Below are positions 769 through 29,009 of a stretch of 38,773 bases of DNA, piece by piece. This DNA comes from a virus, in the IMG/VR virus record IMGVR_UViG_3300010401_000055, positions 1 through 38,773 of that record; one strand, given 5' to 3'. Position 1 is the first letter of the stretch. Every line of letters begins with the position of its first letter. The notes beneath the pieces were generated by a model that was not told the origin of the DNA, searched no databases, and saw only the letters and a list, made by a program, of their open reading frames with translations. A program made the translations under genes and the position numbers.

Positions 769-845
769 TGGCCCCGCCCTAGGGAATCGAACCCCACTGT
801 GATACAGACCGCGAAATCTGACCACTGATCCCACAATCGGGCGGG
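769..845 (-). tRNA. tRNA or tRNA-like, isotype unclear
   Basis: A perfect acceptor (CCCGCCC/GGGCGGG), a canonical T-arm with UUCGAUU loop and an encoded CCA are present. The centre is abnormal. The best stem, CAGAU/GUCUG, leaves a 6-nt loop UUCGCG, and an outer helix UGUG/CACA replaces the D-arm. Depending on register the anticodon would be UCG (Arg) or CGC (Ala). Position 8 is G instead of U. It directly follows the large ncRNA. Confidence 0.5.
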
Positions 846-848
846 AAA

Positions 849-1640
849 AAATAAAGGGTAAGTTAATCAGCCTTGAGGCCTTTGCTGAGTGGGCCGCGCT
901 TCCCATGTCTGGACTTACTTTAGTGGCCAGACTACCTTACCACGACAATCTAAAATGGAACAGGACGGTGGAATTTCACCCTTCTTTTGGCTATTCGGTG
1001 TTAACCCCTAGCAGCCTCAACCATTGCATCAGGCTCAAGGCCTCTTAGCGCCGGTCCGCCCCGCTGTGCCTTCTTGCGAAGGACTTAAACTGCACGACGG
1101 TATGCTCGCCTGATACATCAGAGTTATGTTTCCACAACCCATTGGGACTCGCACCCAATCCAACCGTCAGTTCTGCTCCTGGTGTTCTGAGGAGACTTAA
1201 AATCAAAGGGTGCCTTGCTCCTCAGTTATTCCCCGGCAGGGAGGAGTCCACGAAAATTGCCGGGCCAGATGTTCCCATGTAGCACCCTTGGGGAACCCAC
1301 GAATCACGTTGCACCTGGGAAGATTTCACGTTCGTACCAACTTCTTTGGACTGTACCAGTACACTGGCGCGGGGGGTTGACCCGCCATCCGTTGGTATTT
1401 CCGATGCAACTCTCTGCTCACGGTGTCCTGGTGAGACTTAATTTTGCATTGGGTCAATTATTTTATGTCGCTGACCGCCTTGCAATTATGACGACAATCT
1501 CTCTGCTCCTGGTGTTCTGAGGAGTCTTAAAATCTTGGCGGTCTTTTTTTGAGAGGCCGCCAATCCTCTGTTCCGTAGACTACAGGGTACCCGAATTGAG
1601 TACGGTCTGCCGCGTTGACTTTGCCAACCTCGCGTCTACT
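849..1640 (-). ncRNA. large ornate structured ncRNA (GOLLD/ROOL-type candidate)
   Basis: About 790 nt without a credible gene, transcribed from the promoter at 1647-1674 and ending in a U-rich run (844-855) just before a tRNA. Seen helices (plus coordinates): 1575-1580/1634-1639 at the very 5' end; 1096-1100/1164-1168; 1208-1213/1282-1287; 1271-1276/1291-1296; hairpin 1232-1238/1258-1264, whose loop pairs at 1241-1246 with 1218-1223 (pseudoknot); 907-912/927-932; 857-862/936-941 near the 3' end. There are GNRA hairpins at 1123-1138 (GAAA loop) and 1069-1082 (GCAA loop). A covarying hairpin occurs three times (1176-1194, 1417-1435, 1506-1524). Known giant phage RNAs GOLLD and ROOL sit beside tRNAs and have this size range, but I cannot match the consensus by eye, so the family is inference. 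Confidence 0.72.
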
Positions 1641-4457: not shown

Positions 4458-4705
4458 TTCAACTCAACTTCCACAACATCGTACCACGGTGCTCGCCACA
4501 CTTTGGGTGACTTTGCTTCCGGGTCAAACGGACTGTCAAATGGATGGTTCCACTGACTGCCAAACTGGTACGCATACCCGCTGGCTTGCTTCTCAAAGGC
4601 ATCGGCGGCTTCCTTGGTCAAGAAGGCACCCACATACCTTGGAACTCCTTCGTCACGCCATGAGTCAAACGCTACAACCACATACACATACACATACTTA
4701 GTCAT
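4448..4705 (-). CDS. 85-aa protein of unknown function
   Basis: 85 residues beginning MTKYVYVYVVVAFDSW with a strand-rich N-terminus, followed by an ALTKEAADAFEKQ-like helix (about 29-41) and an aromatic, acidic C-terminus. No membrane segment. The pattern recalls small phage proteins that pair a beta strand with an 'EA..A..FE' helix, but no family is assigned. It ends inside tRNA-Ala(CGC). Confidence 0.6.
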   Translation of the reverse strand: MTKYVYVYVVVAFDSWRDEGVPRYVGAFLTKEAADAFEKQASGYAYQFGSQWNHPFDSPFDPEAKSPKVWRAPWYDVVEVELKGL

Positions 4706-8213: not shown

Positions 8214-8687
8214 TTACGCTCCCCTTTTCCACAGCAACCCCTCCACCACTTCATCAAGTGTACGGTACATCTTGATCCCAAATCGCTTACATAGAATATC
8301 CACGTTTCCCTTACGCCAAAAACCTTGAGGGCAGCACACCAGGCACTTCTGCGGAATAATACCCACCATCAATCCCAATTCCATGAGGGTAATAGGCGAC
8401 TGACTACCAGGGGCAAAATAGAATACAGCATAATCCGCGTACTCCAAGGCGTCCAATTCCCAATTCACTTGTTCGTTGAATTGAGGATTGTCAATGCTCT
8501 GTTCCCAGGACGAATCCCACGCTTCTCGGCGAGGATTGAAGATACACAGGTTCGTTTCCTTCAACTGGTTAACAACCCATCGCTGCCAATCCATTGAATT
8601 ACCCATATCAATGGTGCCAGCGAGGAATACTTGCGTTTCATTCATGGGTCTGTGCCCCCATGAGGCGGGTGGTCGTATCTCAATCAT
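8214..8687 (-). CDS. nucleoside 2-deoxyribosyltransferase-like protein
   Basis: 157 residues of the Nuc_deoxyri_tr type: VFLAGTIDMGNS (about 20-31; substrate loop), IFNPRREAWD (about 49-58), NWELDALEYADYAVFYF (about 75-91; the E of WELDALE is in the place of the usual catalytic Glu), SPITLMELGLMVG (about 97-109) and VCCPQGFWRKGNV. Family members move deoxyribose between bases or act on modified nucleotides, so nucleotide salvage or base modification is likely. Start coupled to the RNA ligase by ATGA, with AAGGAT at 7 nt. Confidence 0.78.
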   Translation of the reverse strand: MIEIRPPASWGHRPMNETQVFLAGTIDMGNSMDWQRWVVNQLKETNLCIFNPRREAWDSSWEQSIDNPQFNEQVNWELDALEYADYAVFYFAPGSQSPITLMELGLMVGIIPQKCLVCCPQGFWRKGNVDILCKRFGIKMYRTLDEVVEGLLWKRGA

Positions 8688-9244
8688 TCTGTCGATCCTT
8701 TCGGTTTTTCGTCGCCCTCAATGGTTTTCTTGAAATAGAGTTTCGCGGCGGAATGGTAAATCACCACACCCTCAGGTTTCATGAATCCCGGTGAGACTAC
8801 GCTGCCGTTCGTCTTAAGAGAATTCAGACAATCCTGAATGATGGTTTGGTTGAAGATACCTTGAAATAACACAGGCACCACATGGCAACACTTTGGGCGC
8901 ACAGCATCGTCGGTCCAGGTATGTGTGTTGAATAGGGAGAAACGCTTTTCCTTGAGGTCATAGCGTCTCTGGATACCCGCACCCCACCACTCACCATAAT
9001 GACGACCAATCCCAAGACCTGGAATCAATTCGTCCTTGTGCTCAAGCACCCAACGACCGAATCCAAAGTTATCCTCTAAGATACCTTCCGGTGTCAAAAG
9101 CCAACGTGAACGACTGCCAGCAAATAACTGTCCATCCTCAGTAATGAGGATTTGAGCATTGGTGCCGTCAATCTTTTCTGTGACGGTACACTCGCGGGAG
9201 AGTCGGGCAATCTTGGCAAAGGTTTCAAATTCAGGCGTAATCAT
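8684..9244 (-). CDS. RNA ligase (T4 Rnl2-like nucleotidyltransferase)
   Basis: 186 residues with the ligase motifs in order: motif I EKIDGTNAQ with nucleophile Lys24; GSRSRWL (about 43-49); motif III-like HYGEWWGAGI (about 82-91); FSLFN (about 102-106); motif IV PEGVVIYH (about 157-164); motif V KKTIEGDEKPKG near the C-terminus. It should join RNA 3'-OH and 5'-P ends through an AMP-enzyme intermediate. In a phage with its own tRNA array, repair of cleaved tRNAs is a natural role. It lacks the long C-terminal domain of T4 Rnl2. Confidence 0.85.
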   Translation of the reverse strand: MITPEFETFAKIARLSRECTVTEKIDGTNAQILITEDGQLFAGSRSRWLLTPEGILEDNFGFGRWVLEHKDELIPGLGIGRHYGEWWGAGIQRRYDLKEKRFSLFNTHTWTDDAVRPKCCHVVPVLFQGIFNQTIIQDCLNSLKTNGSVVSPGFMKPEGVVIYHSAAKLYFKKTIEGDEKPKGSTE

Positions 9245-26651: not shown

Positions 26652-26752
26652 TTTGTGCCTTTCAGACTGAGATACACGGCAATCAGCCATACGGTAAAGA
26701 TCGGAAGTAAGAGCGCAATGACCATCAGGTTTTTCGTATCCAGATAACTCAT
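26648..26752 (-). CDS. 34-aa membrane peptide
   Basis: MSYLDTKNLMVIALLLPIFT, VWLIAVYLSLKGTK: one membrane helix. Four-nt overlaps with both neighbours; directly downstream of the nicotinamide PRTase gene. Confidence 0.52.
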   Translation of the reverse strand: MSYLDTKNLMVIALLLPIFTVWLIAVYLSLKGTK

Positions 26753-28218
26753 GATCGCTGTGCCGCCAATCGTGTGCGGATTTCCGCGAGGGTGGTCAAG
26801 TTTGGTGTAGCGCCATTCAAGAAAATGGTTTGAAGCATACCGGTTTGCTCCTCGGCTTCTGTGACATCCTCACTTAACGACAAATCTGCATTGACTCTGA
26901 GCAAACCACGGGCAGACTTCTTCAATCCGTTATCCGTCTTGGGGTCCTTAAAGATTGCTCGGCGTTGTCCATTGACCACACCCGAGGTGGCTTTCATCGC
27001 AAACCCATAGGTATCACGGGTCACATACTGATAGGTGAATGAACCAATCCCAAATACGATATTGGTTGACGCAAATCCTTGCTGTTCTAATCGTGCCAGA
27101 ATATCCTTGGCACGGTCTATCGTGATTGAATCCCCATAGATGCACCCAATATGATCGTCTAATTGCTTATAGCCTTTGCTATTCGTGCGTCCACCGAAGG
27201 TTTCCCATAACAATTGAATGGTGCCCTTGTACTCAGGGCTGCCCACAGGTGCCTTCTTATCGCCGCAGATAATATCGGCTGGGTCACCTGAATCAGGACG
27301 AATCACGACTTTCCCCTCACGCGCCATGATTTCATCTTTGAGCGCCGGAAGTGTCTCGGTCAGAATCTTAAAATAATCCCAGGTGTCTGACACGATGCTG
27401 ACAATACCCTTGGAATATACGGTATGGATCAAGCGTCGGAAGGTTTCGAGTTCTCCCGCTTCTCCACCCAAACACATAACAGAGTGTTCGGTGGCAGGCA
27501 CAGAGCACCCAACTAATTCACGGTCTGAGTTCGCGCCATAGTATTGTTCAAGGTAATCAATGGCAGGGATGGTATCGGTACCACTGAAACTTAACAGGTG
27601 GCCCATACCACTCACACAGGCAGATTCAAAACTTGAATGCCCTCTCATGCTGAAATCATGCCCTTGGAATTGGGCAAAGTCAGGCATATCAGAGGTAGCG
27701 CGAGCGTAACGATCCAAGAGCACACGATACTGGTGCGCGGTCGTCGCACTGGTCATGGGCATCCAGGTCACTACCGACAGCAGTGTTTCAAGGAAGTTCG
27801 GCAACCAATAGAATTCCGGTAATGTTTCTTGGAGCGTAATGAACGGGGTACGCATCGGGCACAACATACCTTCTGCCAATGCCTTAACTCTCAGCGGAAG
27901 GAATTGGAGATCATGGAGCGCATAGATATGGTCCATTTGCACAGCATCCTTACCGAGGGCATTATCCAATCGGCGTTTGTATTGCGGGACCACAATCTCA
28001 CGCGGCTGCATGAAAAAATCATTATTAAATCGCTTCGTGAGATATTCCAACACAAAGTATTGCAATCCAAACACAACAACCTTATCCACTCCCTCAACAC
28101 GCGACCCTCTCGGCGTCATGTTGGAATAGACACTTGTGGTGCCATCCGGGTACTGGCGTCTGTGGTCAGTCTTGTAGAAATCCGAAAATGTAATTGGGGC
28201 AATCGCTGAAATCATCAT
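26749..28218 (-). CDS. nadV: nicotinamide phosphoribosyltransferase-like (NARP1 Namat candidate)
   Basis: 489 residues, the usual length for NAMPT/NadV. Conserved elements: ITFSDFYKTDHRRQYPDGT (about 9-27), HDFSMRGHSS (about 187-196), ATEHSVM with His245 (human H247), IRPDSGDP with Arg307 and Asp309 (human R311, D313), and GIGSFTYQYVTRDT (about 390-403). Canonical enzymes join nicotinamide to PRPP to give NMN. In phages, the homologue paired with a Prs-like gene was shown (NARP1) to join nicotinamide to ADP-ribose pyrophosphate, remaking NAD+ directly. It lies 5 nt after the Prs-like gene, sharing TAGGAG as stop and ribosome site. No NMN adenylyltransferase is visible, which favours NARP1. 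Confidence 0.93.
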   Translation of the reverse strand: MMISAIAPITFSDFYKTDHRRQYPDGTTSVYSNMTPRGSRVEGVDKVVVFGLQYFVLEYLTKRFNNDFFMQPREIVVPQYKRRLDNALGKDAVQMDHIYALHDLQFLPLRVKALAEGMLCPMRTPFITLQETLPEFYWLPNFLETLLSVVTWMPMTSATTAHQYRVLLDRYARATSDMPDFAQFQGHDFSMRGHSSFESACVSGMGHLLSFSGTDTIPAIDYLEQYYGANSDRELVGCSVPATEHSVMCLGGEAGELETFRRLIHTVYSKGIVSIVSDTWDYFKILTETLPALKDEIMAREGKVVIRPDSGDPADIICGDKKAPVGSPEYKGTIQLLWETFGGRTNSKGYKQLDDHIGCIYGDSITIDRAKDILARLEQQGFASTNIVFGIGSFTYQYVTRDTYGFAMKATSGVVNGQRRAIFKDPKTDNGLKKSARGLLRVNADLSLSEDVTEAEEQTGMLQTIFLNGATPNLTTLAEIRTRLAAQRS

Positions 28219-28223
28219 AACTC

Positions 28224-29009
28224 CTATTGTGTGAACCGCGCTGACTGATCGTTGACTGCTATGACCTGATCTATAATTCCCTTAAAGACGTTGGGACCCT
28301 TGGTAAAGAATCCATGCGTCACATATAGATGGATTTTCTGTGCACCCTGTTTGCGTAATTCTTTTGCCAATTCAATGAAGGTGCGTCCACCATCACAGAT
28401 ATCATCAACAATGACAAATGTTTCATCAATAGGGAAAAGTGTAGGCATGTACACAACGGTGCCTGTGATTTCACCTGTAGAGGTGTCACGAATTTTGCTG
28501 GACTCAATCACACCCTTGAGTCTGGAAGTGTTGAGGAGTTGAGCGAGTTTGTGTGTTTTCTTAAGCGCCCCAGCATCAGGACTGACAAGCCAGAAGTTGC
28601 CGGACGTGTGAGCATGAATCACTCCATCCATTAAATCCCATTGATTGGACACACGACAATTATGAATAAGCGCGGGGGTTACGTCTGAGTGCGGGTCCAT
28701 AATATGGACATTTTCAAACGCGAGGGAGTTAATCAGATTGGCAAACACAAACAGGCTGAATGATTCGCCTTTGGCATTGGTACGATCTTGACGGCTGAAC
28801 GGCACATAATCCATGTAGAGATTGGTAAGTGTCTTGCCGATCCGCTTAGCCGCATCACAGAACAGGAGCAATTCAATTATGTCCTCGTTTTTCTCAAAGA
28901 CAAATTTTACATCTACATGGGAATAGCCGGGACCGTGGGGAAGGATGTTAACCTGCATTTCCCCAACAGGGAACTTGAAGGTCTTAAATGGGATGTTGGA
29001 AGTAATCAT
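28224..29009 (-). CDS. prs: ribose-phosphate pyrophosphokinase-like (NARP1 Adps candidate)
   Basis: 261 residues, about 50 shorter than bacterial Prs. Recognised parts: catalytic loop YVPFSRQDR (about 68-76), MDPHSD (about 104-109), SPDAGALKK (about 143-151) and the ribose-phosphate binding motif FVIVDDICDGGRTF (about 198-211). Prs moves pyrophosphate from ATP to ribose-5-phosphate. Its phage relatives in NARP1 (Adps) act on ADP-ribose. First gene after the promoter at 29048, with the nicotinamide PRTase next. The divergent motif DICDGG in place of the usual D-IDTGGT is worth noting. Confidence 0.92.
   Translation of the reverse strand: MITSNIPFKTFKFPVGEMQVNILPHGPGYSHVDVKFVFEKNEDIIELLLFCDAAKRIGKTLTNLYMDYVPFSRQDRTNAKGESFSLFVFANLINSLAFENVHIMDPHSDVTPALIHNCRVSNQWDLMDGVIHAHTSGNFWLVSPDAGALKKTHKLAQLLNTSRLKGVIESSKIRDTSTGEITGTVVYMPTLFPIDETFVIVDDICDGGRTFIELAKELRKQGAQKIHLYVTHGFFTKGPNVFKGIIDQVIAVNDQSARFTQ

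Follow-up and report, generated by a model that had tools for sequence, protein, structure and literature searches.

A predicted class of phage non-coding RNA with two interlocked halves, natural circular permutation and an embedded hammerhead motif

Comparative sequence analysis identifies a conserved RNA core at positions 1208-1301, minus strand, of virus record IMGVR_UViG_3300010401_000055 (the window, i.e. the whole 38.8-kb stretch of 38,773 nt that was analysed) and, on this comparison, the core represents a new class of non-coding phage RNA, the existence of which we regard as nearly certain. The core lies in a block (849-1640, minus strand) within a tRNA array, which a preliminary description had read as one structured RNA of about 790 nt. 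The structured RNA is real, but the unit is different: the conserved part is only the ~95-nt core, the sole region conserved in all relatives, while the other conserved parts of the block occur in a single contig (L010). The core has two interlocked halves and is supported by blastn matches to named phages, by covariation and by a match of 96.3 bits (E = 4.6e-21) to a search model that carries helices P2 and P3 only and has the window copy among its 38 training sequences.

Read 5' to 3', the core runs CGUGGG-P1a-P2a-P1b-CAUCUGG-P3a, a loop, and then CGUGGA-P4a-P3b-GAAUAACUGA-P4b-P2b. Its fold comprises four helices arranged as two crossing pairs, P1 with P2 and P3 with P4 (all coordinates on the minus strand). 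P1 is a hairpin (1272-1295) in which 1291-1295 (UUCCC) pairs with 1272-1276 (GGGAA); 98.9% of its cells are paired and five of five pairs have two-sided changes. P2 (1208-1287) crosses P1, joins 1282-1287 (GGGUGC) to 1208-1213 (GCACCC) and has 5-10 bp in all copies. P3 (1232-1264) joins 1259-1264 (CCCGGC) to 1232-1237 (GCCGGG), with 100% of cells paired in 38 copies and two-sided changes in three pairs. P4 (1218-1246), which crosses P3, joins 1243-1246 (CUCC) to 1218-1221 (GGAG), also with 100% of cells paired. The hairpin-loop pseudoknot proposed earlier between 1241-1246 and 1218-1223 is helix P4 with 2 bp added, and P4 covaries in relatives.

Covariation was scored in 38 aligned copies with inserts removed, where the four helices amount to 23 pairs. 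Paired cells made up 94.7%, and two-sided changes were found in 19 of the 23 pairs. There were 167 cells changed on both sides, compared with a shuffle mean of 38.9; when the register was slid by 1-3 columns as a control, paired cells dropped to 30-53%. Registration of the same copies by hand gave P3 and P4 paired in all, P1 paired in 188 of 190 cells and P2 free of mismatches throughout. Across 101 copies, P2 has 92 different sequences, all paired, and P4 has 36 complementary variants. The invariant unpaired stretches of the core are CAUCU and GGGAAUAACUG. The window copy has every feature of the class (P1-P4 in crossing order, CGYGG twice, CAUCU and GGGAAUAAC), and a model search of the 38,773-nt record returned no second copy. 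Minimum free energy does not set the block apart from shuffled sequence (z = -0.63), and z is +0.50 even for a core established by covariation. As pseudoknots lie outside the energy model, energy is uninformative for both, and the case must therefore rest on relatives.

Phage records, searched at high sensitivity with the entire block, matched it only at 1212-1301 of the window. The first matches were Arthrobacter phages Karkharias and Constance and Microcystis phage Mwe-JY26 (the last within a tRNA array), and pattern scans of virus contigs yielded many further copies; distinct copies with all four helices number 101, from phage, prophage and virus contigs. Named examples include Mycobacterium phage Gaia, M. 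abscessus phages phiGD24-3, prophiGD24-3, prophiT46-3 and prophiBWHA-1, Enterobacter phage SDFMU_EhYP, Dickeya phage Setonix and Pectobacterium phages Pappous and Taid. Most relatives have the element in compact form, at about 95-165 nt. In the collections searched, the element is nearly restricted to phages and prophages: the plasmids gave no match, and matches in bacterial and archaeal bins (L054-L086) were mostly due to chance, only L070 and L073 being real. A permuted form of the core (see below) occurs in 15 of 5,426 E. coli genomes, with no annotated feature under any of the 15 matches; the normal-order core had no match in these genomes. Two phages whose hammerheads have been published, Pseudomonas PaP3 and Burkholderia Bcep176, did not show the conserved motifs in the portions examined. 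A divergent core copy (L052 4823-4983, 35 bits) carries a hammerhead and is followed by further structured-looking sequence.

The order CGYGG-hairpin-tail occurs twice per molecule, which gives the two similar halves. The tail of half 1 and the loop of half 2 form P3, and the tail of half 2 and the loop of half 1 form P2; because the halves interlock in this manner, the molecule can be opened at either of two equivalent junctions. Both gene orders are found: half 2 precedes half 1 in 12 of the 101 copies (e.g. L040, L093 and L094), with all four helices kept, and these 12 occur in several settings and in sequences that are not alike. The open junction is enriched in a closing helix, P0 (8.2 versus 5.4 nt). 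One 205-nt unit (L093 2460-2664, and L197, L198, L101 and L144) is 96-99% identical between copies and has the same borders. It is carried by E. coli prophages and a lytic T7-like phage, among other contigs, suggesting recent exchange between unrelated phages. In the E. coli prophages L200, L201 and L202, the permuted RNA has its place in a hairpin frame, CACAACAGGTAAGAGCA...TGCTCTTTCCGTTGTG, downstream of an antitermination gene; the loop of this frame can be filled by about 30 nt, by a tRNA remnant or by the RNA. We considered whether the 205-nt unit is a mobile element and rejected this: its ends are the hairpin frame that also holds other inserts, so the sharp borders are no proof of transposition.

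A looser motif test places a CUGANGA...GAAA hammerhead at one fixed site, shortly before half 2, in 71 of 101 copies, and 19 of the 38 aligned copies could be parsed in full. By gene order, it is found in 59 of 89 normal and 12 of 12 permuted copies. The 19 parsed copies have an intact hammerhead core, three stems and H17. In 70 of the 71, U-H stands directly before N-CGYGG, which puts the predicted cut 1 nt 5' of the invariant CGYGGA, and stem I takes in the CGY of this same motif. Rfam Hammerhead_1 (RF00163) matches L093 with E = 3e-5, below the gathering score, and HH9 (RF02275) matches L038 weakly. Judged by its motifs, the embedded hammerhead is predicted to be type I and to self-cleave. 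The window copy lacks it and has a short loop, AUUUU (1253-1257, minus strand), at the site. In the AT-rich copies L041, L043, L047 and L048, hammerhead stem III is extended by ~35-55 nt, with motifs common to some of the extensions (GGAGTAATTAA and TATGAATGT.AAC). In Gaia (L091 ~2463-2470) the insert looks degenerate, with TTGATAA replacing CTGANGA; the core may persist after ribozyme decay.

Around 37% of copies have a tRNA no more than 1 kb away, versus 16.5% for a random position, and such nearby tRNAs are on the strand of the copy in 163 of 163 cases. Loci with at least 10 tRNAs account for none of the 71 hammerhead copies versus 12 of the 30 hammerhead-less ones (p = 7e-8, a value that ignores phage relatedness); our reading is that tRNA processing replaces the hammerhead in tRNA-rich loci. 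Stand-alone copies show a modest enrichment of upstream promoters (12% versus 2.5%), and intrinsic terminators were recognized by eye downstream of L147 and L178. No conserved neighbour gene was found around the copies. The permuted copy lies between an antitermination gene and a holin in two E. coli prophages, and on the strand opposite to adjacent terminase and portal genes in another. A role as leader or riboswitch is unlikely because the neighbours are variable with no common downstream gene, a reading frame is lacking, and the prophage copies L197 and L198 stand in opposite orientations to their neighbours. The permuted E. coli copies come directly after a terminator with little promoter room, and therefore depend on outside transcription.

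Several features that had been read from the block itself held up. There is no credible gene in 849-1640, the longest overlapping open reading frame (101 aa) being on the opposite strand and without a Pfam match. The block has its own sigma-70-like promoter, TTGACA-16-TAGACT with a TG (1674-1647, minus strand), matching 10 of 12 consensus positions; shuffles of the region gave a mean of 0.6 promoter-like sites. TTGACW-17-TATACT was seen by eye upstream of the RNAs of L010 and L016. The U-rich 3' end, UUUAUUUUUUC, is at 845-856 (minus strand), and the L010 RNA has the same ending just before a tRNA. The placing of the block beside a tRNA is correct on the upstream side (tRNA-Ile, 1726-1815), but on the downstream side there is a T-arm-like sequence (783-797) that ARAGORN does not call.

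Outside the core, the covarying hairpin described in three copies was borne out on the minus strand at 1172-1202 (directly 3' of the core), 1410-1442 (CUCAC/GUGAG, compensated) and 1499-1532 (CUCCU/AGGAG); the stems compensate, and L010 has a fourth compensated copy (CCUCU/AGAGG), equivalent to the one at 1410-1442. Module A, a GAAG...CUUC hairpin 5' of the core (1316-1347, minus strand), is near-identical in L010 only, and module C, a GUCUGG...CCAGAC hairpin (907-932, minus strand), is common to L010 only. A 3' domain (857-941, minus strand) is closed by 936-941 (GGUAAG) pairing with 857-862 (CUUACC) and encloses module C and a hairpin at 867-888; by eye, the closing helix is compensated in L010 (GGUAAC/GUUACC). 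L010 is an 89-kb contig with a tRNA array and a related RNA. Within ~385 nt, this RNA has the core, modules A and C and the repeated hairpin in common with the window, and likewise a 3' domain whose final U run precedes a tRNA. L016 has only the core in common with the window, within other structured-looking sequence, and the 5' third of the block (~1446-1640) with its proposed 5' closing helix has no homologue among the relatives. From these comparisons, the window's phage group likely has a longer RNA around the core with a fast-changing periphery.

Other elements were noted as well. The 21-gene tRNA array of L010 includes a phage-encoded tmRNA (663-967; RF00023, 120.9 bits). A second structured-looking RNA, without an Rfam match, occurs in phage tRNA arrays on the minus strands of L010 (~4480-4575) and L016 (~2835-2925), with the pattern GGCGGGG..CAAGCGCCCCAA...GGCGGGTTGCTTG...CCACTA.GAAGTG...GCCCAAAG. 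The window encodes an RNA ligase (8684-9244, PF09414) and, inside its tRNA array, a peptidyl-tRNA hydrolase PTH2-like gene (2260-2607). At 26749-29009 a nicotinamide/nicotinate phosphoribosyltransferase adjoins a PRPP synthetase-like gene, which looks like phage NAD+ rebuilding against NAD-depleting defences.

An Rfam search of the block, as proposed beforehand, and of relatives left the core without any Rfam 15 family. Against all Rfam 15 models, the block (E up to 5) matched only neighbouring tRNAs and chance sequences, the latter including lysM-TM7 at 1607-1726 (E = 1.4). Scans of the window, L010 and other loci gave only tRNA, tmRNA, hammerhead and weak chance matches, and the window element is matched as tRNA or tmRNA by neither Rfam nor ARAGORN. 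The suggestion of a new structured phage RNA class beside tRNAs thus stands for the core, which has homologues, covariation, no conserved frame and no known family; that of a GOLLD-like or ROOL-like giant RNA does not, as neither the block (E up to 5) nor its L010 relative (E up to 2) has a match. GOLLD (RF01998) is a phage/prophage RNA with conserved and variable parts, often beside tRNAs (PMC12286853). The window element shares this setting, but GOLLD has ~800 nt and the core ~95 nt, two interlocked pseudoknots, a hammerhead insert, permuted forms and no model match. ROOL, also a phage/prophage RNA, lies near tRNA islands, contains pseudoknots and is of unknown function (PMC12286853); the core is far smaller and does not match its model. 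Type I hammerheads (RF00163) are represented by the insert in 71 of 101 relatives, with catalytic letters intact, whereas the core, conserved without the ribozyme and lacking it in the window, is a separate RNA. Permuted hammerhead ribozymes combine natural RNA permutation and pseudoknots, the hammerhead itself being permuted non-circularly (PMC10085705). Here, by contrast, a standard-type hammerhead sits in a host RNA that is circularly permuted. The c-di-AMP (ydaO) riboswitch, a cis-regulator of genes, is a pseudo-two-fold RNA with a pseudoknot; the core resembles it in both respects, but is unrelated in sequence and has no Rfam match. A search of open-access literature (subscription papers and supplements being outside its scope) found no description of the conserved letters or of such a phage RNA, the two matches to the letters being chance occurrences in unrelated papers. 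As far as these searches reach, the element is absent from Rfam 15 and undescribed.

There is about an even chance, in our estimate, that the core is a trans-acting phage RNA. It would be made during phage growth, often alongside phage tRNAs or late genes, and would bind a host component common to bacteria as different as actinobacteria, cyanobacteria and enterobacteria, perhaps one of translation, RNA turnover or defence. Hammerhead cutting would give a nicked two-piece RNA in the normal order, whereas permuted copies would gain a free 5' end. The window core would sit in the middle of a longer RNA specific to its lineage, and tRNA-type processing, not a hammerhead, would probably release that RNA. 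In favour of a trans-acting RNA are the covarying fold, the invariant unpaired letters, the variable neighbours and the stand-alone positions of copies. Against it, the promoter enrichment of stand-alone copies is modest, the permuted E. coli copies rely on transcription from outside, and the benefit of an internal cut in the normal order is left without explanation. A cis-acting processing or stability element, whose fold blocks exonucleases or separates neighbouring transcripts while the hammerhead cuts, is a serious but clearly less probable alternative. It would fit the shared tRNA strand (163 of 163), the location, in several phages, behind terminators and between late genes, and the missing hammerhead where tRNA processing is available; but the neighbours are variable, in one E. 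coli prophage the adjacent terminase and portal genes are encoded on the other strand, and the conservation of unpaired letters exceeds the needs of a mere roadblock.

The dense invariant nucleotides at the junctions might instead indicate that the core is catalytic, or a ligand-binding domain controlling the embedded hammerhead, in the manner of a natural allosteric ribozyme. As the CGY of CGYGGA is also part of hammerhead stem I, core fold and ribozyme may compete, and the pseudo-two-fold layout would suit a two-fold ligand. However, there is no conserved downstream gene to regulate, and 30 of 101 copies keep the core without a hammerhead, so gating is not the core's only job; we regard this as unlikely. 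The same low probability attaches to a bolder version, in which a free-standing, naturally permuted class forms a new ligand-binding or catalytic domain that controls or cooperates with the hammerhead, a self-nicking two-piece machine against a universal host component. Less probable still is that the whole of 849-1640 is one giant GOLLD/ROOL-type ornate RNA assembling into multimers: size, promoter, tRNA setting and the four flanking modules common to L010, some with compensating changes, speak for it, but there is no GOLLD or ROOL match, most relatives have the core alone and nothing homologous to the 5' third was found. A last reading, chance similarity or else an element conserved as coding sequence or as DNA, could draw on the strong primary sequence identity of some parts. 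It is refuted by covariation, with two-sided compensating changes at 167 versus 39 in shuffles; moreover, no reading frame could survive the indels of 1-2 nt or the 41-95-nt loops that bear hammerheads, and permutation preserves pairs but not order. We consider it to have almost no probability.

Copies exist in E. coli prophages and an M. smegmatis phage, so expression and function are testable at the bench, and with interlocked halves, natural circular permutation and a built-in hammerhead, both the fold and the cut are directly testable. The core also supplies a natural context in which to ask what phage hammerheads are for. More generally, it adds a widespread RNA class without an Rfam 15 entry, and indicates that phage tRNA arrays hold more than tRNAs, GOLLD and ROOL.
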